From Echinococcus granulosus (taxonomy: Eukaryota > Platyhelminthes > Cestoda > Cyclophyllidea > Taeniidae), in the NCBI RefSeq assembly GCF_000524195.1, contig NW_020170426.1:151191-215190 (forward strand): DNA of 64,000 nucleotides, written 5' to 3'. Under the pieces are notes generated by a model. It was not told the origin of the DNA. It ran no database searches and saw only the letters and a program-made list of their open reading frames with translations. This document shows positions 28,001-58,760 of this stretch, in pieces (position 1 is the first letter of the stretch; each line of letters opens with the position of its first letter). The position numbers and the translations under genes are program-made.

Positions 28001-31000
28001 AGAGGCAAAAAAAAATTCCTGTCGAAGTAATACTCCCTGTCTTAACATCGACTTAAAGGGAAAAAAAATTATGCTCAGAAAATTTGAAAACACAACAAAC
28101 TGCGCCAGTTCTGAGTTAACGCTACCAGAAAATATGTGCGGAAAAAACTCCGCCAACAATGACATTTCCATAGCCTTGGGTGATAAAACCATCATCATCA
28201 AGAATCCCGACTCCAACGATCAAGTTTGCTTTGAGTCAAAATACGGGCAATGGGCCCCAGATTCCTGCAGCCAATCAGGATCAAGTTGTGTGGATAGCGT
28301 GGTGTCCAGACACATGGGTTGCACTAAACAACATCGTCAGAAATCTCCATGCAAGCGAAAGTGCGGATCCGCAGCGGTTCGAAAGCGGAGCACTCCGCTC
28401 AAGACTTGCTCTCTGAGGGAGACGTCGACATGCGAACGCTCCGCAGGTATTAAACCTTCTGTTTGCCAACCTTCAGTGTGCGTTGCTCTCGATTTCGTCC
28501 CTGATGTCCAAGAACCCCCTCCAAAAGAGCCTCTAAATAAATTATGTACTCCAACGAAAAGTATCCAAACAAAAAAAAGCCCTGGATTCTGCCCCTGCAC
28601 GCAAATCTCCAACGGTGCGATGCCTTGCAGTAAACGCCCTACTAAAGTAAATTCGCCACCTGCTTCTTCCCCACAATCGGGTAGTCTTAGGACCACTCCA
28701 ATACGCCAATGGAACACACCCCCGACCTGCCACCCAGGTTCTGTAGGAAATTCAAACTCTAGATCGAAAAGTCCCGGTGGCTACAACAGTACCCCTTGTT
28801 ATCAACCCTACAGAGCCACCGCACAGAACGCGTCGGCTGATGGAGGCCAACGGGGTGGCTGCAAACCATCTGGTTGCTCAAAAGTGAGTGAGGCGAGTGG
28901 CGAGCCTTCCAAAAAGACTGCACCAACACAGACAACCAAGGAGGAAGAAAGCAAGGAAGGTGATAAGAAGGAGAAGTGCACTCAATGTGCCAAAAAAAGG
29001 AGTTTCTTCGCGAGGATGTGCGACAAATTTAAGAAAAAGTGTGCCAAAGCGAATGCACAAAATCAGACTGATGAGGAGGTGAAGGATGATGACAGTGATG
29101 ATACTGATACAGGAGATGGATCTAAGTGCATGCCCGTGAATGACACGACTTCTTGTTCCTTGCGCTTCAATGAAACACGTTCATATAACTGTTCTGCATG
29201 CTCCACGTCTCGATGTGTTTCTAATCAAAGTCATTCCTTCATGGATTTCACTGATGATCCCACAACGAACTTGCAACTTACCATGCGTAGCTGGAACAAT
29301 ACAGCAAGTGAACCGCATTCGGGGGTCCCTGCATTTGTGCAACACCCCCTCATAAATTCAAGAGGCTGGTGCAAGAGTGAAAGAGTATACCATAAAACAG
29401 GACGGCGGCAATGTAGGGCAGACTACAGGATGAGAACTTGCCCCACTGGTATGTGGCAAAATAACTTGTGCGCAAGATCACATTCATTTGCGCCTGACAT
29501 GTCTGTAAAGTGTTGCAGTGTTGATTCGAAGGCGCTGGTAACAAAATGCCTTTGCAAAGAGGTGAATTTAGGTGTACCATCATGTAAAAAACCTACAATG
29601 CGAATACGGAAAGAAAGAAACTTCAAACTAAATGGAGTGTGTTTCTGTTCAAAGTACGGATACCCCAACAAGGGTTATTATTTCCCATTGTTAGCATTCG
29701 GTCACTCCATTGAGGACAATTCTGATCAGGTAATAGGCCCTAAAAGATTGAGAAATTATCACAGATTCGCACAATGTCCATGCTATAGGTCCTACATTAG
29801 GCAGTTCCCTTACCATGGAGGTAAAGTGAGTCCCGAACGTGGTGATAGGGATTATGAAAAGGAAGATCGAATGAAGGCAATTGAGAAAAGCAAAAATAGC
29901 AACAACTTTTCCAGTGGAATGAATGAATTTGATTGTTGTGCCAAATCAATGGGAAATGGAGGTCCTACTACCGAAGGAGGAAAGACTGCAAGTTCACAAT
30001 GTTTTACTCGGAACTCATCATCACATTTTTTGCACGAGCCTACAATAAAACCACCTCATCAGGGCTCTGCTTCGACGAAAAATACGTGTGATGACCTAAA
30101 ACGCTTAGACAGGCCGCTGTTCCAGACAATTAATCGACCATGCTACGAAGTTCTGGCACTGTTCAAACGTCCCCTGGCCAAAAATCATAAAAACGAGTTG
30201 ATGATACATGAACCACAGAAGTCAAAATATCTGGATTCACATTACCAGCCAGCGTTAAGAAAGGTAAGAACTGATCCATCTACAGTAAAATCAAAGAATG
30301 TGAACACTTCTAGTCGCTGGCCTAGAATATCCACACCATATAAAAAGGGCTCTCACACCTTACCGAACGGTCGCACTATAGAAAACCTGGGAGAAGTTGA
30401 CAACCGTAGGTTTAGTGCCACTAAATCGACTGATGAATTTACTTGCAGTCGGGTTGAAAGTGCCTTATTGAGTCCGTTAAACAAAACCTGTGGATATGTT
30501 GAAGTTCGCCCCATCTGTAAACAACCAGTTGTGATAAAGTCTTCTGTGAAGAGTAAATCCGGTCTGGATGTTCCTTTCTATGCAAAAAACTGGTCACAAT
30601 CGATGCCCAAATTTCAGCCATCTCCAGTTCGGTCTTCCTCGTTTATGATGCCATATGGAAATACGCTGTCTGCTAAACCAGCATTTCTTCCCAGAAATAG
30701 CGCTCCATCATTGCAAACGAGGCGATCCTACGGCCAGGTCCCGCCGTCCATCTGTTCGAAAGCCTCCTTCAACAATATGTGCCCACACCATTGTAGGGTG
30801 TCTTTTGATTCAAAGCCTGTGAATCCTCCATATGAGAGCATGGGTTGTGGAAACTACCCTAGGGGTGCAAACTACCCAACTGGATTTTCAAAAATGTCAG
30901 AACGTATCATGCCACCAGTTCCATGCCAACGAGCTTACTCTCTTGAAATTGCGAAGATGCATAACGGACCCACTGAGGTGAATAAGTTGAAATCAGCAGT

Positions 31001-34000
31001 AGTTCCAAAAGGGAAAGATCAAGTTCCAAAACCATGGCAGGGATCTGAAAAGGCTTCAGCGATCAAAGTCCCCGAAGCTTCCTTAACTCCACGTGTCATG
31101 AATGCGTCCCCTTTGCGGAGTTCATCGAATTCCTTTGGGTTCCCATCACCCCACGAAAATGCCAAGATTCAGTCGATCAAAGCAGTAATACAGGCGCCTA
31201 AGATGCCAAAATACACGTTTGCTCGGTGCCAAAATGATAGATTACTGCCCGATTCGAGATTCGCCGTAATATCCCCTTCACTACACCACAAAGCATCAAT
31301 TATGACTAATGGGTACGAGGCCAATGAGAACACAGAAGTCGAGCCTTTAACTCCCATGGGTCAAAAGAAGGGGGAAAAAATCCCATTACAGTATTCTTTT
31401 CAAGTGGAAGGGAGAAGAATTCACGTGAAGGTTGACAAAGAGGGTGTATTTCATGTGCAGGAGGTGGGGAAACCACCTTCACCACCGCCATCTGTTAACG
31501 TCGTCAAAAGTGGTGAGAAATTGAGGCCCAACACAAATGGTGTTAACGGCGAGCGATCGACAAGTCTGGGCTCTTCAATAAAGGCAACAGATAAGGCGAG
31601 GGAGATCCAGTCCCAGCCCTCTTCAAGTGCACAGCTTGAATCTGAATCCAGTGGGAAATCCATAGGAGTTAATGGTACCCCCAATAAGTGCTCTATATCT
31701 CGTTCGAAGAATTCTCCCATTCATGAGATCCTGAGACGTTCTATCAGGTCGTTAAGTGGAAAACTTACACCAAGATTTTCCTGTCAGGCGAATCAACAGA
31801 TGGGCAATAGCCATACCGTAATAGAGGAGGAAAAAATGTCCGGAAGCGATTGTGAATTTTGGGTGCCACTCACAGCATCGGAGATTCCCTTTCAAACGGA
31901 TTCTAAGAGGATTACCTCCAAAATCTTCTCGACTAACAGTCAACTGAAAATGCACAACACGAGTGAAGAGTCGATGATTCCGTGTAACCAGAATGACCAT
32001 CAAGCGATCCTCGATCACTGCAGAGGCACACGTCGTCGGACTTCCACAACTAGTAGTCAAATGCTGTTTCGAGGTGTTGGTACAGCTGTAGGAAGCAGTT
32101 ATACTGATGCTCTACCTATTGTTTCGTCAACCAAGTCACACAGAAGTAAGAAGAAGAAGCGAGTCTATGCCAATGCGGAGTCAGAGAATGTCAACAAGCC
32201 AGTTTCGTACACTCATTACTCCAATTACAAATCCGGTGATTGTGTTCAGAAGAGAGGTAGCTGGGCAGATGAACGTGACTGTATTGTGGAAGATTTTGAC
32301 TCCTACCCCAAAACCAAGAACTCAACTCTTTTCACCTATGACTGTCAATCGGACAGTGAAACATCCATAGGGATTTCCGCCTCTATGAACATGGGCAAGC
32401 AGTTGCGGCTTCAAGCTGGTTACATGGACAGCGCTAAGCCCGCTACCCCATATCACCATTTTAGCCTCTTAGGTTTTTCAGGGGGCGAGGAAGATTCAAC
32501 TCGCCCCCATGTAGAAAAACAACATGCGCCTATTATTCGATCTAATTCTGCACCTCTTTTTCTAAGGAAAAAAACTTTATCAAACCACCTTTTTTCAAAT
32601 CAGGGGACCCCTGAACCAGCATTGTCAAATTCCGACACGGATAATATCATGGAAACCCCCTTCAATGAGGATTATTGTGACTTGCAAGAGGGGACAGAAG
32701 CACAGGCACAAGCTGACTTGACTAATCGCAATAACTCTGCTCGAGAAGAGGGTAGAATCACCACTAGAAAAGTCTCCAACCGAAAAATTTACAGTGAAGA
32801 ATTTCTGCAGCAATGCTCCAATTTTTCCAACCAAAACAACTACTTCAAGTCCCATCATGAGCAAGTGACTCATCCACAACTGACTACCCTACGGTCACCG
32901 CGTTTATTACCTCCCCTAAATGACTCGCTCGTCTGCGGGGATGTCAAAAAAATTGTTTCAGTGGGGAGTCAACTAAGCAATGAAAAAGAAAAGAATGTAA
33001 CCATGTTTCCAGTGGAGATCGACAAAGACGACACATCGTTGAGGAATGATGGTAACTCTACCGAATCAGTAAAGGAGAAGAGTAGTGATTCCGAAACTGA
33101 AGATCCATCACCTATGAGTACAACATTAACACTACTGCTAGAAGGACTTTGTGGCACCGGTGGAGGTGCAATGGATTCCCGTGTGTCCACTCGGAGTGAA
33201 CCTCAGCGATTCAACACAAAATGCAAAAAACGTCCATGCGTGAACGAGAATGTGCGGTGTGCCTCAAAACCTACAACTAATGGGCAGAATAAAGGTGAGG
33301 GAAAGAGAGTCGAGACCAGTGCCCACAACTGCTTGAAATTTAAGGAAAATAAGTCTTTTCTTCTCCGTAAGAGGCAAAACTGCAATCACACAAGCGTTAG
33401 ATGCATGGCCTGCTTGAAGAAACAACAAAAGCAGACTCTTGCTAAGCCTGAAATCCACTTCTTTGCCAAAGGCATTTTGAAACATCCATTCCGAAAAGCA
33501 CGTAGAAAAGACAAGCGTTCACCGAAGGATACAATCTTCAAGAAGAGTTCTAAAGGTTCACCCCGGTCTGAGACAAAGAAGCGTCGTCGAGGTCATTTAA
33601 CAAAGCCTAGTGGAGACCGCTGTTGTTGCGCCAGTTTATCGAGGCGTTGGAGATCATCGAGTCGACACAAAACACGGTCTCACGCTTCCTCCTGTTGCAA
33701 TCGAATGGCCTCATTCGGAATCGACACTGATGGATATGGACCTAATACCTCGACTGAATGCTATACATTTCAATTAGTTGAACCGTCAGTGAGTATTGAA
33801 CAACCCAGTCCTGACTTTAGCAGGTGCAAATATGATCCATTGATGCATCAGAGTAGGCTATTTAGACAGTGCTCAGACGTGTCTGTGGCTCCCAGAAGCG
33901 CATCTCTCAGTCAATACAGTCGAAAACACTTCGTTTCCGCGTCCTCTCCCAAATCAAGAAGTGTAAGCATGCCAACGGCCGAGGAGAATGAAGATGATGG

Positions 34001-34313
34001 CGAAGTAGAAAACTCTACCAAATTTGGCAAACCTAATTTTATATTCCCACCACCCTATAACACTTCTCATGCCCCTGGAAAATTATCCCTCAATTCCAGC
34101 AGCAAGACAGGAGAGTGTCAAAGCTTGATGGGCGATTGTATGGCGAATAGGCAGTCTTCGTGTCTGAAAATGAAGACCGCGTTGCCAATTTGGGATGTGA
34201 AGGCCTCGACACCGCCTCTGCTGATGGTGCCGTCGTCCAGATCTCAATCCGATGAATCGTCTTTCGTCTCCTCACCTATCACTTCGTTGAATACGTCAGA
34301 AGCTGAGGTGTAG
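25077..34313 (+). CDS. Giant Cys-rich protein of unknown function (orphan ORF 3)
   Basis: One uninterrupted frame of 3,078 codons runs from ATG 25077 to the stop at 34313. An in-frame TAA lies at 25047, and an acceptor-like TTTTTAG at 25056-25062 falls just before the ATG. The N-terminal 130 residues look helical. The rest is low-complexity and rich in Ser, Pro, Arg, Lys and unusually Cys, often as PC, SPC, GC or CC pairs, up to about residue 1,600. After that Cys is rarer, returning in a Cys/Arg-rich block near residue 2,850. There is no signal peptide, so the Cys residues are probably intracellular: metal-binding or forming a cross-linked structure. Possible beta-like segments sit near residues 1,000 and 2,105. 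No domain recognised. It is by far the longest frame in the window and certainly coding. Confidence 0.82.
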   Translation: MINGKATRVGPNSTYNGTGEGIGMGDINAVLKSVKTRNTKLTSRSHLKALKKIRLILEDLTKALFKRVAIWSCKQLTQWKTCLNAPQNITEYLKSSGQNRGDWKISYFMVNVPLHAEIVQCINEGLLSDNDSDGELSNPDSKSMLHYSVAKRDIGHSSTVVSKTSKQIMNTRVIANVQSYGKNQHGAVDEVEINHSNSSRCGCNRSFTAVSHVQGPSSGRSDNCGTWGQMCSDPGRMANSGGGCSSGGQNATKCPSSCPIKSVNDISKETDINKIAASCIRRYTLEESKALATSSPMYRPNPCSPTQKSCDNMKPTASCPGEQMSTTPKMPGKKVEGQAELSLKPLSSPKCRQNYSRMRQNESVTADSSDGQCRRGLQSSSMCRPTKPQNDKCMRNSTESFDDFKSFCNPGYSQPSPPTNMQRNPANRKSGRHSPCRIAITGCERPVLPSYCPPRISNPEIDSRDRFSRRRTDYGVCGDMSKSTSRFLNTGEDGECGGSSQRLTGGEKMNRDCCQQSSRYPISPSPKWNNTTAKDVSCDCLKGNRPQDSRNEDQELRYGDDSCQKNPGGYSFKIKYTEVEEADSPSTPDASDDDCLGKPNQLQVRDRNRHSPNECSCKSPCKTPSNSQHASCKYSVEDYSRDDDEVGYQGCENFDGDTGACPDDYYGNDSSVPPFLQDESSCGRIRASKHTYEDPSAIMMQRYQQNYMSCSPDFAEFSRSPHQPQQRYMEENRGCMHQMWSDMERSPNWHGNTKNSERARCMSRAHSEECPSPYPVCKKSCGIRRKRSRKRCVSRRQPTQKCSGRPRKVVKLSRRASMELERRYAAQVPRSESSLACEAARNKRRYSPPDSCREDAIVSGENKKCLCRSSSRCVMVNPCYRNNRAALLRRKFNAAKIEEEGDPCCCVMLFRSTPVQGNDFSPGQFSESCEEREGGAFNCCMNGEQVERDPCRKPKSPCSRSPIPLNGCQPRERDTEAKKNSCRSNTPCLNIDLKGKKIMLRKFENTTNCASSELTLPENMCGKNSANNDISIALGDKTIIIKNPDSNDQVCFESKYGQWAPDSCSQSGSSCVDSVVSRHMGCTKQHRQKSPCKRKCGSAAVRKRSTPLKTCSLRETSTCERSAGIKPSVCQPSVCVALDFVPDVQEPPPKEPLNKLCTPTKSIQTKKSPGFCPCTQISNGAMPCSKRPTKVNSPPASSPQSGSLRTTPIRQWNTPPTCHPGSVGNSNSRSKSPGGYNSTPCYQPYRATAQNASADGGQRGGCKPSGCSKVSEASGEPSKKTAPTQTTKEEESKEGDKKEKCTQCAKKRSFFARMCDKFKKKCAKANAQNQTDEEVKDDDSDDTDTGDGSKCMPVNDTTSCSLRFNETRSYNCSACSTSRCVSNQSHSFMDFTDDPTTNLQLTMRSWNNTASEPHSGVPAFVQHPLINSRGWCKSERVYHKTGRRQCRADYRMRTCPTGMWQNNLCARSHSFAPDMSVKCCSVDSKALVTKCLCKEVNLGVPSCKKPTMRIRKERNFKLNGVCFCSKYGYPNKGYYFPLLAFGHSIEDNSDQVIGPKRLRNYHRFAQCPCYRSYIRQFPYHGGKVSPERGDRDYEKEDRMKAIEKSKNSNNFSSGMNEFDCCAKSMGNGGPTTEGGKTASSQCFTRNSSSHFLHEPTIKPPHQGSASTKNTCDDLKRLDRPLFQTINRPCYEVLALFKRPLAKNHKNELMIHEPQKSKYLDSHYQPALRKVRTDPSTVKSKNVNTSSRWPRISTPYKKGSHTLPNGRTIENLGEVDNRRFSATKSTDEFTCSRVESALLSPLNKTCGYVEVRPICKQPVVIKSSVKSKSGLDVPFYAKNWSQSMPKFQPSPVRSSSFMMPYGNTLSAKPAFLPRNSAPSLQTRRSYGQVPPSICSKASFNNMCPHHCRVSFDSKPVNPPYESMGCGNYPRGANYPTGFSKMSERIMPPVPCQRAYSLEIAKMHNGPTEVNKLKSAVVPKGKDQVPKPWQGSEKASAIKVPEASLTPRVMNASPLRSSSNSFGFPSPHENAKIQSIKAVIQAPKMPKYTFARCQNDRLLPDSRFAVISPSLHHKASIMTNGYEANENTEVEPLTPMGQKKGEKIPLQYSFQVEGRRIHVKVDKEGVFHVQEVGKPPSPPPSVNVVKSGEKLRPNTNGVNGERSTSLGSSIKATDKAREIQSQPSSSAQLESESSGKSIGVNGTPNKCSISRSKNSPIHEILRRSIRSLSGKLTPRFSCQANQQMGNSHTVIEEEKMSGSDCEFWVPLTASEIPFQTDSKRITSKIFSTNSQLKMHNTSEESMIPCNQNDHQAILDHCRGTRRRTSTTSSQMLFRGVGTAVGSSYTDALPIVSSTKSHRSKKKKRVYANAESENVNKPVSYTHYSNYKSGDCVQKRGSWADERDCIVEDFDSYPKTKNSTLFTYDCQSDSETSIGISASMNMGKQLRLQAGYMDSAKPATPYHHFSLLGFSGGEEDSTRPHVEKQHAPIIRSNSAPLFLRKKTLSNHLFSNQGTPEPALSNSDTDNIMETPFNEDYCDLQEGTEAQAQADLTNRNNSAREEGRITTRKVSNRKIYSEEFLQQCSNFSNQNNYFKSHHEQVTHPQLTTLRSPRLLPPLNDSLVCGDVKKIVSVGSQLSNEKEKNVTMFPVEIDKDDTSLRNDGNSTESVKEKSSDSETEDPSPMSTTLTLLLEGLCGTGGGAMDSRVSTRSEPQRFNTKCKKRPCVNENVRCASKPTTNGQNKGEGKRVETSAHNCLKFKENKSFLLRKRQNCNHTSVRCMACLKKQQKQTLAKPEIHFFAKGILKHPFRKARRKDKRSPKDTIFKKSSKGSPRSETKKRRRGHLTKPSGDRCCCASLSRRWRSSSRHKTRSHASSCCNRMASFGIDTDGYGPNTSTECYTFQLVEPSVSIEQPSPDFSRCKYDPLMHQSRLFRQCSDVSVAPRSASLSQYSRKHFVSASSPKSRSVSMPTAEENEDDGEVENSTKFGKPNFIFPPPYNTSHAPGKLSLNSSSKTGECQSLMGDCMANRQSSCLKMKTALPIWDVKASTPPLLMVPSSRSQSDESSFVSSPITSLNTSEAEV

Positions 34314-36059: not shown

Positions 36060-39000
36060 CTAACTGAGACATTCAATAACAGCTTGTTTTTCCTTTTCCG
36101 GTAGCTGTGCCATACAGGCTTCATAGACCACCGAATTAGCCTGAAAGGACGTTAAAATCATCGAAAGAGATCATCATCAAAGGAATTAGCACAATTAAAA
36201 AAGGCAACGAACCTGAATGAGCCGAAGGATGGAAACACAGCGATCGTAGACGGAAGGGGTTCCAGGAGTGGATTTTGCGCCGTTCACCTGCTTATCCCCG
36301 GCTCCACTGGCGGCCGAAGCACTAGCACTTCCCTCCTCCTCATCAGGGCGAAAGAGACTCTTTTCCGAGAAGACACGTGCGATGGCAGCGACAATACGCG
36401 GCAGATTGGTGTTGGTGGGTCCACCAAGAACGGCTGAGTTGTTGGCTTCCACGAGATCACACAGGTATCCGTAGACGTGATCGGTTTCCTCACCGTCTTC
36501 CCAAATCGGCAGCCACGTGAGCCAACGCACAATCAGCGCATTCAGGTCCGTTAGCCCGGCCGGGATCAGACACTCCGTACGGTACTTCATTATCTACATG
36601 TATAAAAACAATTAAGATAAATATCGCGGGAAAGATTGAAGTAAGGGCTATAGGAAAAAGCATTCCAACGAGACAAGCAACAAAGGCTTGAGACGTCGCA
36701 AGGGAGAATACCCAAATGCCAATATCAAAAAAGCCTGACATATTAATAACTTTCGAAAGTAGAAAAAAGACAGTAATTCCGTCGTTTGATTATTAGCAAG
36801 TAATGCGTGCAAATTCAAAAGCGCTTAAGTGAATAAGCCACGCGTATTTACACTCACGTGCATGTAATGTGGGAGTCCAATGGCAAAGACAGATGCCGCA
36901 CGCCAATCTAAACAAGTCACATTCGCATTTATCAGGGAACCCAAATTGCACAATGCTCTCGACTCTACTAACCTTATTTTTGTAAACCTCGGTCACTTGT
37001 TGAGTTAACATTCTTCTGGTTCGATCACAAAAGTATGAAATTATCTAGTTAAGCTTAGCCACCTGAATGGAGATGACTGACCACCCTACACGCGAATAAT
37101 CACACGCATTTGTCGGGTGGTTGGCGTGAACAGGATACTGAAAACAATAGAGCCGCCTCTTCACGCTCTCTAAAGTACACAAACGCTGCCTAGCTGTCGG
37201 CCAAAATTCAGCTATTAAACCAGTTAGCTACTCACAACTATTTCACAATGCATAGTAAATCGGGTCTAAAAATTCCGTTGATCCACCTTTGTCATAGAGG
37301 ACACCGCGTTTTCTCGGCACAAATTGTTTTCATCGCTGGCAGAGTCGGGTGATTCGATGATCTGCATCAGCGGTGGCACGAAATCTGTCAAAGTTGCAGT
37401 GTAATCAGGTCCGCCGTACATGGCCATCACACCAATACCATAGATAGCCATCTGTCTGATGTCATTCTGCCGGTGCATGATTGCCCTCGCGAAAGCCGGG
37501 ATGAAGAAATCTTTCATGCTAAAGGACTGGGGGCCGGCGTGTTCAATTAAATCGGCGCAGAAGCAAAGACCCCACTGCATATCTGACCATGGACGATTGG
37601 GCTCCTACAATGTATTTCAAGCACTGTTAGTTAATTACGGGAAGGAAAACCGTGACTGATTCAATTCACCAATTAAACTAAATAGAGTAAAAGTGGGTTA
37701 ATTACGGCGAAGTTAATAGTGTGTTCTTACGCCCACGACATAACTAAATGTGGGTGATTTAAAAATTAACCTACGAGAAGTTTCACAACGTGAACCATGA
37801 GCTGCTGGAAAAGGGGAAGGGCGTCTGTCTTGTAGGTTGAAAAGATTGCCCGCATAACTTCGCACATCTTGGAGAGAACATACTCGTCCTCGTCCTTTTC
37901 GTTTAGGATCCTCTCCTCCTCCTGTTCATCGTAATCCTCGTCCTACATGCAACAGACCATGGGAGTTTAAGACGAAATCAACCCCTCGGCATATAATTCT
38001 TATGAATTGACATGAACCTAATGAGGTTTTTTCGTTTTTTCGCAGTCCTCGTGGCGAAATTAGTTTTAGTGATATGAGATAAAATGTCATAAACGGTTCA
38101 AGTATCAGGGAGCAAATTCACGATGAGAAACATAAAACTTAAGCAATGAGCATTACGACAAGCAAGCTTTTAATCGTAAATGGGAAGTAAAACCGGTTGT
38201 TCTGGGCTGCTAAATGAAGATCTATCAACCTGGGAAGTGTTTTTTCATGAAAATAGATGAAGACTTGTTTTAAATGAACACCAAAAAGCGTGGTTTGAGT
38301 CAACATTGAAAATTTTGGTCATATTTAGCAGAGGTACTAACCTGTCGCTTGGCAGCTCGTTCTTCGTCCTTTTCGAAATGTTCATGGAAGAAACGGTCGA
38401 GAAGCCGATGGATCTCAGTCATGCGTTCATAGTTGAGATAACCGACACCAAGACGCTCGATACAACTTGCAAGAGCCTCCAAATGGTCAGCAACCAAGTC
38501 ACGCTCGGGTTCTGTGGAAATGGCCTCCATAAGTTTGGTGAACACCTTATCCCAAGCACTAGCCACAATATCTGGCCGCGTCTTTTTCATACTGTCCATC
38601 AAATAGGGCATTATTTCGGACGCCGCGCTACGGATCTAAGGCATTAACATTGGTAAAGAAACAAGTTGATTCATTTAATGGCGGATAGCGAGACAAGTAA
38701 AGTACATGTTTATGAAAATAATTGCTATTAGGCCTAAACTAACCAGAACTCAGCCAATACACGAACTGATATGCTTTATGTGACGAATGAAGAGAACTAA
38801 AAATAGATTACTTACAAATAATAACCACTTTACAACCGTGATCATTTCAGGTGGTATAGCACGCATACCTCATCATTGAGACATAAATTCAGCATCGGCA
38901 GCATAGTGTTGAGAACGTCTTCGCAGTAGGGTGCAAAGCTCTCTTTCAGCTCTCGAGCGTAGCACACAAGCATCTGGCAAGCAGTCGCCTTGTCTTCAAG

Positions 39001-41726
39001 AATACTAGTTCTTATGGCACAGTTTTGATCCTCACCGATAGATAGGATCTGCCAAGATTCGGGATCAAAGCTCTCCGCTTCCTCGTTATCAAGAACACAA
39101 ACTTTGGGAGCCATTCGTGCTGTCCTCAAAACCTGTGGCATAACCATAGGGAGGAAGGGTTCGAAAGAGCGACCAAGGAGTTTGCAGATACGCGCCCACG
39201 CGGTGATGATATAGTTTACTTGCGGGTCATCATCATCAAACTGCTCATCTGCTGAAGCGTCCCCAGTTCCTTCTGCCGCAGTGCCCACCTGGGTCTTCAT
39301 GAAGAGGGACATAATTGAACTGGCATCTTGCATGAACTTTTCCTTCCCCACTGCCAGCACAATCAAACTGATGCATTCAATTGTTTTGCCGCGTAGAAGT
39401 CGCAAATCTGGGTGAACTGCGTTCTCCATTATGTACTTTAGACCGGGCATGAAGCTGAAACAACAGCGTGTTGTGAACAGTCCCGTGATTTCGCAAAAAA
39501 TTAACCCACTGCTTTTGAAATGAAGTAGAAATGAATAATGAGAACCGGACTTACCGATCGTAGTACGGAGCGAAATTCTCACCAGCAGCGTCAGCCACAG
39601 CGGCAATTGAAGTGACGGTTTGCAAGAGAACGAGTTTGTGCCCTTTTTCAACCATTTCCTGGAACTTAGCCGTCATCACCTCCTCCAACTTCTTCACGAG
39701 GTCATCCAGATACTGAATTAGCATACCCTAAGAAGGGGAGTCGGAGAAAACTAGTGTTCAAATTTTAGCATGAAGAGTGAAACGATGGGATAGCTTAGAC
39801 AAACTTACCTTGTGTGATGTTTCACAGCAGTTTACAAGTGCAGCACCAGCATTTGCCTGTACACGGGGAACTTCATCATCAAGAACGTGGAGAATGGCGG
39901 GAATAATCGCCGAATGATAATTCTTATGCAGTTTCGGTCCAAAATCAGCAGCCATTTGACCAATCGCATTGCAAGCTGCATAGCGCACACGTGGATGCGG
40001 GTCTGCCATACGCGGAACGACTGCCTGAATGATTGAGCCCAGCATTCCCTCCATTTGCTTATGACATCCCTCACCACAAGCTGAGACGGCCATCAGACCA
40101 GCATGGCGCTTCTTCCAATCAGCTGTGGAAGAAAATTCGGGAGTTTAGATGAGAAGGGAGAGTACTGGAAATGAAATTAAGTAACTCACGATCTTGCAGC
40201 ATGACTGGCACAGTTTGAGTGATCTCATCCAATACGGCCTGAGAACCCATGGCGCACGCGAAACGATCCAGAGCCATTTCAGCGGTAATTGCATTGCTAT
40301 CCTCCTCATCCTCTTCTGGAGAATCCGCGGTAGCCCAATCAAGATCCTCCTCCAACTCTGTCATCATCTGCAACAGTGTCCTGACAAGCGGTTTTATCAT
40401 ATCCTTGCCAGCTTTGCGTACACTGGAGGGAATATTCTCGGATAGGGTTACTATCACCTCCAAGGCGATATGACGTATTGGATCAGCCAAATCGTTGTTG
40501 CAAAGCACCTGTTGATAAAAATGTTTAATGAATCACTTTAAGCATTTTCTTTATACAGGTAAAGGGCGAAGTTACCTTGTAGCACAATTCCAGTGTAGGC
40601 AGGAGGAAGGGGCGGAGGTATTTAGGCGCTGCATCGGCCATTTCTGCCAGACATTTCAACATTGTGTCGTCTTCGGAGTCGGATTCAAGGTTAGCAGCAA
40701 CTGCCTGCAAGCGTAAATTAAGGCATTAACGTTCATTTACCCAGAACACTAACAAAGCTAAGTGTGCATTTCCCCAGAAAGTTTTAACAGCTACGCGTAA
40801 CAACGCAGCCAGACACACTTTTCACAAATGCAACTACGACAAATGTCCTTTTCCACTCCTAAAAAGTGGCACAAAGTGTCCAAACGTACTTATCTAATTG
40901 AAATGGAAATTACCATAAGAGCGGGTTCGACGAGATCTTTAAGGGCGTGTTGGATAGAGTTTTCGGTGGAATTCTGCACAAGAAATGCAGATAGAGCACG
41001 GAAGCCGGCTTCACGGACATTGGGAGAAGCATCATGTAGAGCCTGGTTGAGCATATGACCAATGTCTGGCATCAGAGGAGTGGGGTCAGGGCCGAATACG
41101 GCGGGTACGATCGCAAAGAGATGACAAGCAACTTCACGAAGGCCCGGATCAGACGACTTGAAACATTCAAAAATAAATGGCTGGAATTCAGTCCATTGGC
41201 AAACATTGTCATCACCTATTAGGTAGAGGAAAATTCATATACCCATTTACCAGCACTGAAGAGCAAAGCACCCACACAAATAAGTTACCGAAATGTTCTC
41301 GAACCAGTTCAGCTGCAACGTCAGCTATTTTTCGACGCATCAATTCCACCGGTTCGTTAACGATCGACACAAGGAGCTGCTGCCTGATTCCATTCTTAGT
41401 TTCTTCCGGAAGAGAACCAAAAGCTTCCTCACAGTCTCCCATTAAAAGACGGCGACAAAGAACAGCGGCCAAAGTCCGTGGCTTAAAAAACAAGACAAAA
41501 ACTCTTTAAAAATAAGCGGTCACAACGGAACAGGGTACAAGTAGTCAAAGAAGCCAAGTTATCTACTCACGACAGGTGCTAAGGTAGTATCGGTCATGGA
41601 TTGAAGGAAAAGACTGAGCCGATCCGTGGCGGGAATACCGCCAAGGGTGTTTTCAGCCTCAGTTCGAATATCATGATCAGGGCTTTGAAGGCGCTCCAAC
41701 AGATTTTTGAAAGATGCCAGATCCAT
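36060..41726 (-). CDS. IPO5: Importin-5 (karyopherin beta-3, RanBP5)
   Basis: IPO5 is a HEAT-repeat nuclear import receptor that carries ribosomal proteins and histones and releases them on binding Ran-GTP. Thirteen exons, in coding order: 41571-41726, 41289-41481, 40914-41215, 40576-40704, 40190-40508, 39809-40122, 39555-39727, 38869-39454, 38342-38635, 37775-37942, 37287-37604, 36213-36593 and 36060-36140. All junctions are GT-AG and in phase, giving 1,137 aa (human 1,097). Matches run along the whole protein: [15 protein letters not shown] [56 protein letters not shown] split here by family variation, [37 protein letters not shown] and [10 protein letters not shown]. Acidic loops typical of the family are kept. 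An extra Ser/Ala/Gly-rich insertion lies near the C-terminus (exon 12). The start [17 protein letters not shown] fits the first HEAT helix. Confidence 0.97.
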
Positions 41727-43486: not shown

Positions 43487-46400
43487 CTATGATTTGCATT
43501 TAAGTAATGCTAGTTCCTATCCTGATTTCCACTTTATGATATTGTGAACTACTTGTTTGCCGTACATTTTCGGCACGAAATTCATCTAGTATCACTTTCC
43601 TAAAATCATTTATCAGTTTACACCTTTAGTAATAGCATGGCCTTATATGCAGTTGTTTAAATCAATGGTAGGAATTGTTGATTACAGGATTCATCTTTTC
43701 AAAGGCTACAGGACACTCTCGAATTGTTGTATCTGTTTTGCGTTTCTTAAGGAGTCGGCCATCTACGCATCAGGTGACCTCTTCAGGACAGTAACTGCAT
43801 CTTTGCTGGTCACGTGATAGTGGAAGGATTCAAAAAGCCGTGCTCCTACACAATGCGAGCAATTTATCTCGCTGTAACGCATCTCCTTTGCTATAAGCTC
43901 GTTAATACAAACTGTACAGGTTAAGTGGTAATTTGTGGGCATCTTATTAGCCAACTTATGCAGTTGCGAAGACCTGCTTCAGTATTTCTAGATTACACCT
44001 CCATTTAGTCTTTGCAATTTACTAGCGAAAACTTCTACCTACAGTTGTGAACCACTTGTAGTGAGAATCGGTTTTAGAAAATCACCTGAAAACACTTCGA
44101 AGTCCCACTCGCTCTGTCACTTTTGAGGCAGCGCAACAAAGTAACTGATGAATATTTGGTGGAATTCCAACTATTTTGCAACATTTTCAGTCACATTAAC
44201 ACCTGTCAAAAGACCTCCATGTTAAAACAATCATCTCTCCCACTAGAACGGCTTATATCACAACTTTAGAGAGGCCTCATAGCGCTGAACTCCGCTTTTG
44301 GTGATTCGGCTTGGAATTTCAACCAAAAGAACGTAATTAAAGTTATTTACACACAGAAGGCTAATTTCACAGATTCTGAGTGGAACGATGCCGGAAGAAA
44401 GAGCCGTTTACTATGGAAAAATTACCTATAATACCCCTTGTTCTCGATAACCCTTCCCATTTTCGTTAAACCGGATCCTACCTTTGTGCCCATGTAAAAT
44501 GGATTACTAGCTTACCTCACAACCACCATCACGACTAGTACTAAGATCGCCATGATTATCCACCCCAGAACCACTCCTTGGACGTCCATACTGCATCTGT
44601 GCTGCAACCCAGGGATCATAAATAACACTTTTCTCCTTCGCCTGAATAGTCGACGACACCACGCGCATGTGACCAGAACTTCTGAACGGCCGAACATCAT
44701 CTTCCTTTTCCTCAATCACTTTCGACCGAACATCCAGCATGCGTAGCTCCTCCACTTCCGCCACTTTTGGTTTGCCCTGAAAGATATTCCACCAGAACCA
44801 CACCAGCACCAACATTATAAGGTGGTAGAAGGCATTGCCAAAGAAGATGAGGAGGAAGAGAGCAGAAAGGAAGGAGATACCAGCACAGAGGCCCAGAGTG
44901 CCACCGATATTGGCCATTAGGGCGAAGAGGGTGCTGGTCACCTCCTCATTCCACGTGTCTACTCGAGCCGAGCGTAGTCGAATGTCAATTATGATTATAT
45001 TTTTGCCGTCAGTAAAGTTGGTCTGTCCGCCCGTTGCATCGCCTAGCATTTGAGACCACTTTTGATGGATGGCTGTGTTGGAGTCCAGGGTGGAGAGATT
45101 GAGGTCCATCATGTGTCTAGTGATTAGCGGCAACTTCATTGTGAAGTTGCCGTTGATATTGGACACCTCAATTTTGCGTGTATGGTAAAGCATCTGGTAA
45201 AACAGGCAGAGGTGGATATAATTACACCGCTTCATGATTGAAGATAATTTACACAGAAGAAACGCAGTTATGATCATCAAGTCATGATCAGAGGCACACG
45301 ATTACAAATTCTTTCACACTTCGATAAGCTTTGTACATCTACTGACTTCGAATAGGTCAGTTCGCATTTAGCTGCAAGTTGAATTGATCTTGTGTTGCGT
45401 CACTAAGTTAAAATATACTTACCTTTAGCTAATATTTAGGTCATCTTAAAATCCATTGACACAAAACACACCCAACGGGGTATGACTGAAGCAAACGCCT
45501 CTGCACACCTTGTTACAGTTGACTGGGCACACCTCCTGTCGTAGTTTTTTTCTCATGTCTGGATCATCTCTCGACTCCCATAACAGATCTGGATTGATAT
45601 AGGCATCAAGAACATTGGAGGTTGGCAGTTTGCTCAACCTCTCATGACACTCAAAGTTGGCACGCGCTCGTTGGGAGGTACGGTCTCGCAAATCGCGGCA
45701 GAAATCGACCCTCAGATGAGAAAGATCCAACACCTTCGGAGTTCCTCGGGCCCGTGGATCATCATCGGGCTCTGGAATGTGTGGCACGTGTAGAAGATCT
45801 GAGTAGCATCCGCAGGTCTCCAGAATGTGTGACTGCTTTCGATTAGCCACACAGTCCTCGTATGTGTAGTTGTACTCCAGATACTTTGTCAATCCTCCGA
45901 AACTCGTGTATCTATTTAATCAATTCTTTAAATGTGAAGTGTTTAACTTAAAACGGTAGATACACTTAGAAACTGCAAAGTCCCTATCATCAAAGTGTCT
46001 CATTTGACCGAATACCTGAGTGACCTGAAATAGTAAACCGAAGAAGACAACTTCAACAGCCACGTAGTGTGTACAAGAAAAGTTTGTCCTACCTGTAGGG
46101 CTTTGGGTATCTGCTGCACTTCTTGAAGCCGCGAGTGGTTGAGACAAAGTGTAGGCCGGTAACTTGGACCCTGGCAATTTGCCCGAAGTGAACTGCAAAG
46201 CTGGATGGCATACTACTAATCTCATAGCCTGGGAAGGTCCCAGGATTATGCACGAAAATGTTTATCCCATCGTAGCTTGGGGCGTCAAACATATGGCTCT
46301 GAAAGTTTACGCGACAATTGAGTTTTCAAATGAAGAGGTTTGGAAAAAGCTAACTCGTAGCTAGTCGTATTGCCAAAAGCTATAATTATCTACTACTAAC

Positions 46401-47405
46401 TCACGCTCTTTAATCCCTGCAGATTATAACAATATCAGTCTTTTAATCCTAACACGGCTAGGTCTAATAACGTCATCAGCGAGGAGTTGGAGCTCAACAC
46501 CCCAATTCCTATTTTAACTGAGCTCGATTTAATTAGGCGACACACTTCGAGATCATTGAGGATCATGTAGGGTTCGGCACCGGTGCCGTTTTGCTCGGCC
46601 ACGTAGACAAATGTGAGGCCAGCACCCACGGTGACTCTGCGTTTTTCCTCTCTTGGTGAGAAGGTGAAGCACTTGAGGTAGCGCAGATGCACGACTTCAG
46701 TGAAGTTGGCAAAGGAGCAGTGCTCCCCGTTGTAGGTACAGTACATCAAGTGGTCGTAGCTCCGTGGATCTGACAAGCCTAAATGCAGGGGTGTGAATGT
46801 CGCTAAATCACTTCCCCTTCTCATTAACACCCATGAACTAACTTATATTCTTTATTTAACAGTATAATGACTTAAACTGACGGAATTTGAGTGAACTTAC
46901 GTCGATGAATTGCCAGTTGTATTAGCATGGCAGCCTGGACGTTCAAATCAGTCGGATGCAGCCCTGCATATTTTAACTTCTGCACGACATGACTTTTTAA
47001 ATTCTCCAACTCGGCAAGATCCTCCTGTGGCATAGAGAAGTTGGAAAACGGCGCAACTGGACAGATAGTGATATCAGGAAAGACGAGTATTTCATTTTCC
47101 GAGAGGATTTGCGTTGCCACAGGGTTGGAGATGTAAGTGAGAATCAGGTCTCTTAGCAGAGCTATAAGAATGGTCATCACAATGATGAAAACTAAGAGCC
47201 AGAAAAGAGCTAACCACCCGATTCGGATGTCAATGTGTTTTAGGGCGTGCTCTTTGCTACGAGCGTGAAGCAGTCGACGCCGAGCTAAACGTCCGTGACG
47301 GGCGATGTAGTAGGGTAGGTAGGAGGGCTTGCGCTTCTCAAAGTACTCCATCGCAGCGGCTTCTCCCTCCAGTCCTGCTGCGGAGGTTTTTTTTTGACTA
47401 CCCAT
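43193..47405 (-). CDS. DEG/ENaC-family (amiloride-sensitive-type) cation channel subunit
   Basis: The predicted product is a trimeric channel subunit of the plasma membrane, in the family that includes ASICs and FMRFamide-gated channels. Six exons: 46901-47405, 46546-46802, 46093-46298, 45509-45911, 44516-45193 and 43193-43486, giving about 780 aa with phases matching. TM1 is WLALFWLLVFIIVMTILIAL (about residues 64-85), followed by the signature VFPDITICPVAPFS. The extracellular domain has YCTYNGEHCSFANFT, CFTFSP, a Cys-rich thumb with ETCGCYSD, and CPVNCN then Tyr four residues later. TM2 contains NIGGTLGLCAGISFLS, with a G-I-S selectivity triplet. Deviations: the usual His-Gly before TM1 is His-Ala, and the acidic residue after the G-x-S triplet is Phe. 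A second hydrophobic stretch follows TM2. Ligand and subtype cannot be told from sequence. The cytoplasmic tail is long (about 220 residues). Confidence 0.92.
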
Positions 47406-48749
47406 TTTCTACTCGCGTTTGGACGATTCTCAGGCAAGCAAAAGCATCGGCCAGGTCGGGGTGTGTCAATTTAAAACCAGACAAATCGATTTATTTCAGG
47501 TTGAAATTGAAGTTACTGTCCGTGGCTCATAACTAATGTTCAAATCAGTCAAAGTGTGTGGAATCTATCTTAAGGTAAAAATGACATCTATAAAGAAAGT
47601 GGGTCAAACACGTGACCATTGTCGACGCATCCAAATCGCTGATGGAACTTGCAACCACGGTTCCCTCTTGCCCAGTCTTATTCCCATGCTTCAGGTGGAA
47701 CGGACACTTACAGTGCTGTGCATTAGGAGCATGCCATAGTGGCTTGCTAGATATTCGTAGCATCCCGATTACTTCTGAAGACATCATAGTGGTGCGGAAT
47801 TTGAAAAAGACATGGTTATTGATAGTGTAATCATTATTATGCATAGAAGCATTTGAGTGATGGACCAGAAAGCCTGCATAACACTATATGCAATGACTGA
47901 TACGATCAAACGTGGACTATTCTGCACTCTGTTAAAATTATGGGCCATTGTCTCAAATATTCCACATTCTCTACAGTTATCCTCTGGGTACCGACCTGAA
48001 CAATGTCTGACTTCAGCTTCAAACGTTTTTGCCTTCTGTTTGCTTAACCTACGTTATTCCTTGTTTGACTAAGTGTATACAAATTTCTACCTGAAGGTGC
48101 TTAAAATGTCGATGATTTTTTAAGCATTTCTGCGTACGCGTTACAGGCCTGGATAGAATTAGAAATCTTGATGTTTCAATACAACAGGAAAGGTATAAAG
48201 GATGTAGAAAAGTTGATTTTGTGGTTGTAGAAAGCATTGTGCTAAAATCTAATCAGATTTAAAGTTTAGTAATGTACTACTTTGATTATTAGTTCAACTC
48301 CCCTTTGGTACTTCTGCTGGGAGTAATAGTCTCTGAACAAAGCCCTTCGATGTGTCGATAAACAATCTTCCCAAGAAGTATTATTGTAATGCGTTGGTTG
48401 TTCAACCCCCAGTTTTGGTAAAGGGGCCACGTAGGTGCGCCGCTATTGCACCTGTGCCGGGTGGGCTGCCTTGCGGGCCGTGCCGGTAGCCCCAACCCTA
48501 CTGTATGCCAAAAATGTGCTATGCCTGGGTACTTCGTTTTCTCTCATCTGCGGAGAAGCTCTGAGGTGACGTAATAACAGTACTTTTAGTCCACCTATAA
48601 TTACTAAAAGCCATTTCCATCAGTTTTTTGCACTTAGAAATTCAAAATTTTTGTTATTGACTCAATCTTGAATGGAAATGATTTAAGTTATGTGCTTGTG
48701 CAAATAAATCTTCTGCTAGATGTACTAAAAGTCATGGAATTTAGTAAAA
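47406..48749. other. Head-to-head intergenic region (DEG/ENaC and RINT1)
   Basis: This spacer separates two divergent start codons and probably holds both promoters, though no TATA or other clear element was seen. It contains one dispersed-repeat copy (48383-48506). Other short frames are not supported. Confidence 0.5.
48383..48506 (+). repeat. Dispersed repeat, copy C
   Basis: The most GC-rich and longest of the three related copies, sharing both ends with copy A: the ATTGTAATGCGTTGGTTG start and the ACCCTACTGTAT end. It sits between two divergent genes, 25 kb from the other copies. It carries no internal coding sequence, which suggests a short non-autonomous element. Confidence 0.7.
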
Positions 48750-54700: not shown

Positions 54701-56994
54701 TGGGGGATGGATTATTGGCATACAGAAAGGGACTGAAGGCTGGCTATACGATTGGCCAGAACGCTTTACCTCCAAAGGCGAAATCGAAACTGAGGATTCC
54801 CCACAGTTGGTTGTACATTTAGGACAGGTTCCGTGCTGCTACATTATCTGATAAATAGTCTATCTTATTTCAAACTTTGCCCTCAGTGTTGTTGGTACCT
54901 ACTCGTCTACTTTGGCAATCATAGTATTTTTCGAACTGTGAGTATGTAGAGGAGTGGGAAGTCCGGCAACTTGTGGAACGTGAATATGGCTTTATGCTAC
55001 CAGTGAAAAGATTAGACTGTGTAATATTAAGGGGGTCTGTGAAGTCGTGAATTCCTTAAAATCAAGTTATCTTAGCAAGCATGGATAGTCGAATGCTAAT
55101 TGTTCCCCATGTTTTTTTCTATGGGAAACAGCCTGGCAATGAGGAGAGGAATGGCTGGAAAACCATCACACATCGTCTAGGAGCTGCTTTGACCGAAATA
55201 AATTCATCTGGAGTTGCCAAAACGACAGCTGTCGTGCGACGTCGAATACAGTGTCCCGGCGTCTTCTCTGAGGTGGGTCTTTATTGACCTTATACCTCTT
55301 ATTCCCCAGATCGTGCCATTATTAGATGTAAAATTTCGGTCTCAGTCTTATAATCTTTTAAGAAAGTTTGCTTCCATCCTATTTTCTTTCGACTTATTGC
55401 AACTTTTACGATCTTCCCCTCTTCATGTTGATGAGACTAGGGCAATTATTGTTTTATAACACTTCAGAGTAACCTAATCCCTAATAACATCCTCTTCATC
55501 TGCAATTGATTCCTATTTGGGATCCCTGTCAGTTTAAGTATATGTCCCAGACACGAAGGTGTCAATGTCAGTAATATTTATCCATAATTTTTTCCAAAGC
55601 ATCTTGTCGGTTTGTCTTTATTGAATGGTTACCCAAGTGACAGCCTACATTTGTCATCCCTTCTGTTGGCAAATCACAATATGTATAGTTTGCAAGTGTC
55701 GTTTAAGGCTTGACCATGTTCCACATCGTGCACACCACGCGTGGTGATCGCTTTTCATATGAATATCTATCTAACGGCAAAATCTATTTAAAGACTCACT
55801 TCCCACTTTATTTATTTCCATTTTATTTATACTGCTCTTCTAGAAGTCTCGATTTTTCAGATTATGAGTTCTCTATGAACGATGCCCATTCATTCAAGCT
55901 CAATCTGACTCTAGTACTGCCCGGTGTGCGGAACTCAAGATTGGAATAGTTGCCAAAGGATGACGCGGGTTTAATAGGCGCCATCCTTAAATAATACCGG
56001 AATGTTGTTGCAATCGACCCCGTTATAGTGTTTGAGTTATTCCTGACAATGTTATAAGTTTTGTGGGTTGGTGGATTGAATACTACTGGCCTAAATTGGT
56101 ATGATCAGGGTTAAGACCGAATCCCGTGAGGCTAGAAAACTCGTATAGCCAAACACTGGGCTTGGGAACTAACAGCACTTTGTTCCATCCAGATTTCCGA
56201 ACTCTATGGGCGTCGAATAGAGGAGAGTCTACAACGAGTGGGACAGAGCCTCTTCAAACGCCTGCGAGAACTGGCGCAGGCCTATCTCAGCGACAGTCAG
56301 CAGTGGTCGCGAGTGGACGGCTATGAGACGCTTTCGGCCACCAACACTCCACCACCGTCGGCCACCAGTCTGTCTGGCCACACAGCAGAGATGTTCGTCC
56401 GGCTCAATTGTGACCTTTCAGCCACTGCCAAGACCCTTCTACCGCATCTCTTCACCACGCTCTGGCAACCCATTCTGCGGAAAATTAATCAACTCTTTTA
56501 CAATAAGGTGCGTTTCCGATTTCATTTTACTTGAAGTTGTGTTAGCCAATCAAAATTGGGAGAAAACCCGAGCTCACTTCCGGTTGTTTGAAATGTGAAT
56601 AAAATGACTTTCCTAATTTCGTCGACATTCCTATGATTCGGTTACTTTTCTCCTCTAGCTGGTGCTGGAGAATCACTTCACCCCTGTAGGAGCAAGCCAA
56701 CTCCACTACGACCTAAACCACTGTCTCCGTACCCTTCTAATGCCTTATTCCAACCTCCTGGTAGTTGACGACCTCCTAGCCGAATGCTTCGATGCCTGCC
56801 GTTTGCTCAGCCTCCCTCCTGGATCTATTCACTTGTTGAAGCAGTCTCTGCTCAGCACAAACACCTCCTCGGCTGTTCTTGGATCTCTCGTCGAACTAGG
56901 CATCCGCCGTCTCCCTCCGGATGCTGCAATGGCTGTCCTCTCCCGCTACATCCCTCTCACTGCTAATTGCGGTGATGATAATGCTATTTTCTGA
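48750..56994 (+). CDS. RINT1: RAD50-interactor 1 / Tip20-type tethering factor
   Basis: RINT1 is the Tip20-like subunit of the NRZ (Dsl1) tether for Golgi-to-ER vesicles, with an added DNA-damage checkpoint role in animals. Seventeen exons: 48750-48787, 48840-48904, 48946-48961, 49015-49079, 49137-49177, 49273-49332, 49374-49609, 49685-49879, 49914-50078, 50881-51013, 51059-51172, 51270-51375, 52002-52281, 52845-53145, 54106-54198, 56193-56507 and 56659-56994. The total is 853 codons including stop (human 792 aa). Family matches: a coiled-coil N-terminus, LEPLEKRFLFNFYGDR, KPEKPEWYFTEVLTWI, DEMLTFEKCL, KVPQCVGDFVTLVYSI, EWTNDQYFVELWE and a C-terminal helical domain ending LPPDAAMAVLSRY. One intron uses a GC donor and exon 3 is only 16 nt. 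The N-terminal seven exons and exon 15 are less certain than the rest. An assembly gap lies in intron 13. Confidence 0.92.
52513..52612. other. Assembly gap (100 N) in RINT1 intron 13
   Basis: Exactly 100 N, inside the intron between the exons ending at 52281 and starting at 52845. The flanking exons join in phase, so no coding sequence needs to be missing. Confidence 0.99.
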
Positions 56995-57003
56995 TTCTAC
57001 ATT

Positions 57004-57009
57004 AATAAA
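57004..57009 (+). promoter_or_regulatory. Canonical AATAAA poly(A) signal for RINT1
   Basis: The hexamer lies ten bases after the RINT1 stop codon (56992-56994), giving a very short 3' UTR. It is 94 nt upstream of the BLOC1S1 acceptor, a spacing like that between genes of a trans-spliced polycistron. Confidence 0.7.
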
Positions 57010-57085
57010 TTATCTCACTCAATCCAATTGTAATCTTGTATGCTTCGTTTTTGTTTGTCTATTCAATTAATACCACAGGAAATAG

Positions 57086-57103
57086 TTTTTTCTGCCTATC
57101 AAG
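57086..57103 (+). promoter_or_regulatory. Candidate spliced-leader trans-splice acceptor for BLOC1S1
   Basis: A pyrimidine-rich stretch ending in TATCAAG|GCC at 57103/57104. No upstream cis exon that would supply an in-phase ATG was found in the 109 nt between RINT1 and this site. An alternative AG at 57084-57085 is also in phase and would add six residues. Confidence 0.55.
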
Positions 57104-58760
57104 GCCGAGCCTGGATCCGGTGATTTCGATGCGAATGCACTGCGAGATCTTGCAAATGAGCACCAGAGGAGAGTTCAGCAAAAGCAGGCTGATTTGGAGA
57201 CTTATGAACTTCAGGTTCTTGATTCGGTCTTGGAACTTACCTCTCAACTCAGTCTGAATCTCAATGAGAAAATTTCGAAGGTATGGAATCCTTGCACAGA
57301 TTGTAAGTTTGACGTTACCCATTGCCATTTAAATTGTACTAACGAATAGGCTTATTTCAAACGCGTACTATTTTTCGCAAGGATTCGTCGTAGTTCATCA
57401 TTTCGTTACGACAAAGTGTAAATAGAAAAGCGGAATGCCCAGCTGTCAATCTTTTTTGAGTTTTGCCGAAATACAAGCATTGATCAAATCCAGTTGCCAC
57501 TCATCTACTCATGCCCCAAGTTTTACTCGTTTCAGTCTTCTTTCGCAACGGAACTTCTCCAGTCATCTACTAGCGTGTTAGGCGTTCATTTGTCATACTA
57601 AGTATCCAAATCAGCTTCTACTCGGTTCCGAAGCCGTAATAAGTCAATGTAGAGGAAGGTTTTGTTAGCGCACAGAATAGCTGGAAGGCTCTGGGCTTAA
57701 CTGAAGGGCCATTTTGCCAAAATGAAACTGCAACCTGCGAATGCTTAGTAGCCAACGCAGATAGGTAAACAGTTAAAAAGATGTGGATTCATTGCATAGG
57801 TTCCCCCTCTTTGGTGCTGCCGGTATTCACATCGCCGCTTTGACTGTGACGAGGTTTGTGAATCCGCTACTAACCACGCGATGGTATCGAAGGCAAGACG
57901 ACGAATTCGCATCATTGGAAGAAGGATACCTCCTGGAGGTAGTACATTGTTGTAGGGAGGACTGTATACGGGGCTATTTTACTTCGGAGAATGTACTAGA
58001 GGTTGGGCGATCCTCCATCGCGAACCTAGTGTGTATACATCACTTTTCACAGTAGCATTTACTTAAAGCGACAGGAGAAAACGTCGGGGACGTGATAAGC
58101 ATTTCTTTGAGGTGGATTTTAATTGGTGGCTATCTGATCTCACTCCATTAGTGGTCGTTTTGAATAGCTCGGCATTTGTGATTTGGTAAAAGGTAGGTAT
58201 TGTCCATATAATCCTTCTGTAGTGCGCCCTGGCAAATTCAGCCATCAACAGCGCATATCCTCTTGTAACGTTCGGATTGGATAGATATCCAGCAAAATTT
58301 CAATTTCCCTTCATTTGAATCAGGTTTGCTCACCAATACCACTAATGAAGCTCTTGAGCCCTGTCTGTAGTCATAATAAGGCCTACAAAATTGAAGATTG
58401 GTTTGTTATTAGCATCCAACCTGCAGAGGCTAAGGAGTCCTTGTGGCTGTAAGTTCGAAAAGGTATCAGTTTACTTTAGTGCTATGTATTGAGATCATTG
58501 TTATTAATAAGAATCCTATGGTATTTTAATTGTTTATGCTTTCTCTGTAGGCTTATGATAACCAATGCCGTCTGGACACTGAGGTGAAGAGACTTTGCTC
58601 CAACATCCAGACGTTTAATTGTCAAGTTGATCTGTGGAATAAGGAGATTCTTGACATCAACTCCGCCTTGAAGGAGCTTGGAGACGCTGAGACGTGGTCG
58701 CAAAAACTTTGCCGAGACGTACAGATAATCCATGATACATTACAAGCAGCCGACAAATAG
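57104..58760 (+). CDS. BLOC1S1: BLOC-1 subunit 1 (GCN5L1 family), reading frame without its own ATG
   Basis: BLOC1S1 is a small coiled-coil subunit of BLOC-1 and BORC, acting in endosome and lysosome-related organelle biogenesis and lysosome positioning. It has also been linked to mitochondrial protein acetylation. Two exons, 57104-57280 and 58551-58760, join in phase 0 to give 128 residues plus an initiator Met (human core form 125). Aligned features: a basic start (LANEHQRRVQQKQADLE), KAYDNQCRLDTEVKRL matching the family's QAYMNQRKLDHEVKTL, and LKELGDAETW matching LKEIGDVENW. Length and spacing fit a complete protein. There is no ATG codon anywhere in the frame, and upstream of 57086 the frame hits TAG. 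The start codon must come from elsewhere, most simply from a spliced leader ending in AUG. The gene lies 109 nt after the RINT1 stop, on the same strand. Confidence 0.9.
57281..58550 (+). other. BLOC1S1 intron 1
   Basis: A 1,270-nt intron with GTATGG at the 5' end and CTGTAG at the 3' end. No embedded gene or repeat is supported; an open stretch at 57783-58055 starts without ATG and has no recognisable product. Confidence 0.75.

Follow-up and report, generated by a model that had tools for sequence, protein, structure and literature searches.

BLOC1S1, a conserved subunit of BLOC-1 and BORC, is encoded on the forward strand of the window analysed here (64,000 nucleotides (nt) of the Echinococcus granulosus genome; assembly GCF_000524195.1, contig NW_020170426.1, positions 151,191 to 215,190), 109 nt downstream of the gene for the tethering factor RINT1. 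Its coding sequence (CDS), at 57104-57280 plus 58551-58760, specifies 128 amino acids and a stop without a single Met codon, and the features around its 5' end suggest that the start codon is supplied in trans, by a spliced leader (SL). The locus is laid out as follows (positions are those of the window; a slash within a sequence marks a junction; P0002 is a relative of BLOC1S1 exon 1 that is discussed below):

56659..56994, forward strand: last exon of RINT1, with stop TGA at 56992-56994 (PF04437, E 3.3e-07, 30.0 bits against a cut-off of 30)
56995..57103, forward strand: intercistronic spacer between RINT1 and BLOC1S1, 109 nt
57004..57009, forward strand: AATAAA, the likely poly(A) signal of RINT1
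57040..57042, forward strand: the one ATG in the spacer; it does not share the frame of the BLOC1S1 CDS, whereas in the relative P0002 it does
57083..57085, forward strand: in-frame TAG 5' of the BLOC1S1 CDS
57086..57103, forward strand: pyrimidine-rich stretch and AG that would form the trans-splice acceptor (TTTTTTCTGCCTATCAAG); of the 13 bases from -5 to -17, 11 are pyrimidines
57104..57280, forward strand: BLOC1S1 exon 1, beginning GCC GAG CCT, which would add 59 codons to a leader-supplied ATG
58551..58760, forward strand: BLOC1S1 exon 2, ending in stop TAG

The protein matches the GCN5L1 domain profile PF06320 (E 4.3e-22; 78.9 bits against a cut-off of 23.9) from profile position 3 to 112 of 114, starting at its residue 18; the domain is full length, and the N-terminal side lacks nothing that is conserved. 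Among solved structures a single chain matches at E ≤0.01, namely 9tqb_G ('Biogenesis of lysosome-related organelles complex 1 subunit 1'; E 1.6e-13). A first-pass annotation, made from the letters of the DNA, had described the frame as a full-length BLOC1S1-like protein devoid of Met, and translation, PF06320 and 9tqb_G confirm it. The two exons are separated by a clean intron (donor AAG/GTATGG, acceptor CTCTGTAG/GCT). Searched against the 103.6-Mb, 272-contig assembly, the protein gave two matches, which are its own two exons, and no second copy of BLOC1S1 was found in this genome search. An open exon free of ATG is ordinary if it is internal, and freedom from Met is by itself only mildly unusual, because at the Met frequency of seven Pfam-supported open reading frames of the window (24 of 1082 residues) a Met-free stretch of 128 amino acids has a chance of about 6%. 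The case for an anomalous start rests on geometry, not on the Met count: BLOC1S1 is notable because a complete domain lies 109 nt behind a gene on the same strand, with a spacer too small for a cis-spliced first exon.

RINT1 is recognised on the strand of BLOC1S1 by PF04437 matches at 51905, 52816, 56136 and 56659, the first two of which lie under the Pfam cut-off, and its last exon has the relatives P0003 (69%) and P0004 (86%). Exons of COG3 (Golgi tethering) are found on the same strand of the window, at 4539-6570. Candidate flatworm operons have been defined as same-strand gene pairs no more than 300 bases apart (PMC12582326), a definition that covers RINT1 and BLOC1S1, on one strand and 109 nt apart.

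Within 56995-57103, the ATG at 57040 is the only one, and a TAG stands in frame at 57083-57085, both as the first-pass annotation had seen. From this TAG to 57104 the in-frame codons read TTT TTT CTG CCT ATC AAG. With a CDS free of Met and the sole spacer ATG out of frame, BLOC1S1 has no usable AUG of its own in CDS or spacer. Splicing within the spacer does not provide one. It had been claimed that every GT after the ATG at 57040 leaves phase 1 or 2; there are four GTs between this ATG and 57110, and for three of them this holds (phases 1, 1 and 2). The fourth, at 57085, 45 bases from the ATG, gives phase 0, and the claim has to be amended, although the junction of this GT with 57104 would need an intron of 19 nt. 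If introns shorter than 25 nt are set aside, the spacer contains no ATG..GT pair in phase 0.

Position 57104 is in phase 0, and the AG at 57102-57103, joined to a leader ending in AUG (the leader AUG itself being taken from the literature), gives Met-Ala-Glu-Pro-Gly in frame; the chance that any AG is in phase is one in three. Among 4078 AGs across the window, 1.7% have a tract as good as the one in front of this AG. The exon 2 acceptor of BLOC1S1 also has 11 of 13 pyrimidines, and the last-exon acceptor of RINT1 has 12. Alternative AGs have 8 of 13 at 57079 (out of frame), 4 of 13 at 57086 and 7 of 13 at 57110 (both in frame).

In 2006, Cheng and colleagues reportedly described a flatworm spliced leader with a 3'-terminal AUG that serves as initiator. 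The premise of the first-pass annotation, that flatworm leaders end in AUG and that this AUG can initiate, agrees with two published surveys (PMC12582326; PMC3510090). With few exceptions, some of which were judged possible pseudogenes, the leader sequences of flatworms terminate in AUG, with GU coming next (PMC12582326), and the leaders of Hymenolepis microstoma likewise end in ATG (PMC7653826). In E. granulosus itself, 143 of 187 leader-bearing clusters are predicted to be full length from the leader ATG, and four of eight abundant leader-bearing clusters would need that ATG to match their orthologues; moreover, 35 genes of S. japonicum are cited as using the leader AUG (PMC3510090). Because of these 143 clusters and 35 genes, starts at a leader AUG are not rare as a class. 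Tight same-strand pairs are, according to the literature, resolved by trans-splicing.

From these observations (the identity of the gene, its lack of Met codons, and the geometry, phase and acceptor tract), we propose that BLOC1S1 is the downstream cistron of a two-gene RINT1-BLOC1S1 operon and that a spliced leader joined at 57104 supplies its AUG. We put the probability of this reading at roughly 0.7; it is the best explanation because phase, acceptor tract and operon-like layout agree. We infer a polycistronic transcript that is trans-spliced at 57104 in this species. One primary transcript would span RINT1 and BLOC1S1; the RINT1 mRNA would be cut and polyadenylated after the AATAAA at 57004-57009, and the BLOC1S1 part would mature via SL trans-splicing at the AG at 57102-57103. 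Because the flatworm leader ends in AUG, the mature mRNA would read ...AUG/GCC GAG CCU GGA... in frame (Met-Ala-Glu-Pro-Gly...), the leader being the only source of a start codon. We lean, by a small measure, towards the stronger claim that the only possible AUG of BLOC1S1 comes in trans, in which case its synthesis would depend fully on trans-splicing and on the processing of the RINT1 operon, with no fallback start. The leader junction at 57104, which the first-pass annotation had put forward, stands as far as phase, acceptor tract and layout go; it is weakened by an SL RNA gene that was not recognised and by the in-frame ATG of P0002.

Several observations weigh against a leader-supplied start. 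The acceptor reads UAUCAAG, with A at -3 (AAG, not YAG), and departs from the motif UUNYAG, which flatworm leader acceptors match (PMC12582326); in S. mansoni, outron acceptors reportedly show weaker conservation than acceptors at cis boundaries (PMC5832876). In cyclophyllidean cestodes, trans-splicing was detected for fewer than 10% of genes (PMC12582326). To these are added an ATG-free start in only one of three control loci, itself ambiguous; an SL RNA gene ending in ATG/GT that was not recognised in the assembly by seven search designs; and the relative P0002, whose spacer ATG shares the frame of the CDS (MLRFCLSIRLISHDVLSLLPIKAEP) and which carries an internal Met.

The control loci were taken from the same genome by way of the COX6B and UMP1 Pfam families, which are marked as having the SL AUG in frame in Table 2 on E. 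granulosus (PMC3510090), and three loci were obtained. At L046/L049 (G000:C212, exon start 89780, minus strand), the first recognisable exon is ATG-free, in phase 0 and directly preceded by CTTTAG; the gene is COA6-like, not COX6B (PDB 6nl3). It is a weaker case than BLOC1S1 because the 500 nt upstream contain 22 phase-0 ATG..GT pairs, one of them with a CCT/GTAAGT donor at -339, and a cis exon is possible; it is an ambiguous second candidate for a leader-supplied start. L047, by eye the likelier true COX6B, does possess an ATG, in an exon farther upstream, contrary to the E. granulosus table, and the UMP1 locus (L048) was left undecided.

In the searches for the leader RNA gene, the published leader of Echinococcus/Taenia type gave no match with up to 3 mismatches over 28 nt (control 0) and 9 with up to 2 mismatches over 18 nt (control 9). 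The pattern TGTATGGT with an Sm-like motif gave 22 matches against 17 in the control, not a meaningful excess, and inspection by eye of L003-L033 found none that was leader-like. There were no matches to ACCGT..CGGT..TATGGT (control 7) and 8 to TTACCTTGC..ATGGTR (control 8), none of them leader-like, two being identical copies 26 kb apart on one contig. BLAST with the leader returned no matches, an empty answer that is uninformative by the tool's own warning. Two matches to CGTTAATCGGT..ATGGT (control 0) were rejected; neither has an Sm-like TVTTTGG within 90 nt from the splice donor, and there was no Rfam match. An Rfam scan over the window likewise gave no match, and no tRNA was found. In several flatworms the genes for SL RNA are arranged in tandem, and among cestodes the SL RNAs held by syntenic clusters differ from species to species (PMC12582326). 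The window contains two runs of 100 N (at 16401 and 52513), and another stretch of the assembly has 3616 N in 10000; these are either gaps or withheld sequence.

P0002 (91 amino acids, source lgn, on a contig of 1657 nt) is the sole relative of BLOC1S1 exon 1 found, and a search for further relatives with a two-sequence profile returned only P0002 again. It is 82% identical over 47% of the query and 80% over 85% of a shorter query, and it keeps LPIK/AEP across the proposed leader junction, a point in favour of the leader reading. The first-pass annotation had proposed that related species be checked for the same ATG-free frame; in P0002 the ATG of the spacer is in frame instead, which speaks against a lineage-wide lack of an own ATG. 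Its first 8 residues are identical to those of the frame opened by the window's ATG at 57040. In these respects P0002 favours the alternative that the ATG at 57040 is the true start, with an N-terminal extension of about 22 residues, and that a small indel, either an assembly error or an allele, breaks the frame in the window, for example near the T6 run at 57086-57091, where an indel error would look identical. We regard this as unlikely. Translation would begin right behind the poly(A) signal of RINT1, the window also has a TAG in frame with the CDS, and the open frames of 1245, 1364 and 3087 codons elsewhere in the window, although picked for length, weigh against frequent indel errors. The ATG lies 64 nt from the GCC in the window and 66 nt from it in P0002, a difference that changes the ATG's frame from one to the other. 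In exon 1, 10 of 59 codons differ between the window and P0002; in the spacer the count is 7 of 21, and where the intron begins it is 4 of 10. In divergence, the spacer looks nearer to the intron than to the exon, although not significantly (Fisher tests against exon 1: spacer p 0.13, intron p 0.11), and the comparison has little power because the true intron itself gives only p 0.11. Tentatively, and on the strength of one relative, the spacer may be non-coding and the N-terminus of P0002 the gene caller's choice of any in-frame ATG.

We give equally little credit to a cis-spliced ATG exon in or upstream of RINT1, transcribed from a nested promoter, or to a fusion of BLOC1S1 to RINT1 by skipping of the last RINT1 exon. 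The 3 kb upstream of BLOC1S1 do hold 78 phase-0 ATG..GT pairs, two of which fit a simple strong-donor pattern, at -2276 (CAG/GTTCCG) and at -596 (AAG/GTGCGT), the latter being RINT1's own penultimate-exon donor. The spacer itself, however, holds no usable exon; a nested first exon, if real, would have to sit within RINT1, and the scheme demands either a promoter nested in that gene or a fusion protein without the RINT1 C-terminus.

Still less likely is a non-AUG start on an ordinary capped mRNA, whether at the CTG at 57092, in the pyrimidine tract, or at an in-frame CTG shortly before the domain. No stop separates the CTG at 57092 from the CDS, with which it is in frame, but its context is poor by general knowledge (T at -3, C at +4), and a separate promoter for BLOC1S1 would be needed, either in the 109-nt spacer or within RINT1. 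That BLOC1S1 is a dead copy, untranslated since the loss of its start, would account for the missing ATG but is highly improbable for the only copy found in the genome, with a full-length frame, intact splice sites, 82% identity to P0002 over the aligned part and a near-complete Pfam profile.

Other genes were seen in the window. A dyskerin-like gene (PF01509, PF16198, PF01472 and PF08068), with a long open frame at 60110, lies 3' of BLOC1S1. The three long open frames mentioned above, at 12013-15747, 17780-21871 and 25050-34310 on the forward strand, are Ser-rich and without a Pfam match, and may be large exons belonging to a tapeworm-specific gene or to several such genes. On the minus strand, 44510-47408 holds sodium-channel exons of the amiloride-sensitive, DEG/ENaC type (PF00858; four matches, of which two exceed the cut-off), and 36198-36593 and 40122-40532 hold exons with importin repeats (PF18808, and PF18816 below its own cut-off). 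Elsewhere in the assembly, a cox1 fragment (L036/L037; G000:C84:42156-43243, minus strand) matches PF00115 in two pieces, profile 51-253 and 314-413, in different frames, and is probably a nuclear copy of mitochondrial DNA. Genetic code tables 5 and 9 both assign Ser to AGR codons; translated with table 9, the fragment resembles taeniid cox1, which suggests a cyclophyllidean, taeniid-like cestode and so agrees with a flatworm origin.

If the AUG of BLOC1S1 does come from a leader joined at 57104, the gene would be a natural all-or-none reporter of SL trans-splicing, a conserved BLOC-1/BORC subunit would be untranslatable without trans-splicing, and gene predictors that demand an ATG would truncate or miss it. 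Surveying closely spaced gene pairs for conserved first exons that lack an ATG could reveal more cases. The value of BLOC1S1 is that of a clean test case, because the principle of leader-AUG starts is already established.

BLOC1, GCN5 and RINT1 do not appear in the main texts of PMC3510090, PMC7653826, PMC5832876 and PMC12582326, whose supplementary gene lists may already include BLOC1S1, and a literature search found no paper that combines at least three of RINT1, BLOC1S1, operons and trans-splicing; BLOC1S1 was likewise absent from the ten papers listed out of 1,785 in a further search. Among the leader-bearing clusters of E. granulosus, the SL ATG is predicted as the start in 143 of 187, as it would be here, whereas none of the three names occurs in the main text of that study (PMC3510090). 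With the operons of cyclophyllidean cestodes, BLOC1S1 and RINT1 share a layout of two genes on one strand, 109 nt apart where up to 300 is allowed, but the AAG of the BLOC1S1 acceptor departs from UUNYAG (Calvelo et al., 2025; PMC12582326). Compared with leader-AUG initiation in flatworms, the present case is deduced from the genome alone, its own leader not having been found, whereas the acceptor in phase 0, the ATG-free frame and the complete downstream protein are as in that system. BLOC1S1 is thus most likely a fresh example of a mechanism known in flatworms, and not a new phenomenon.
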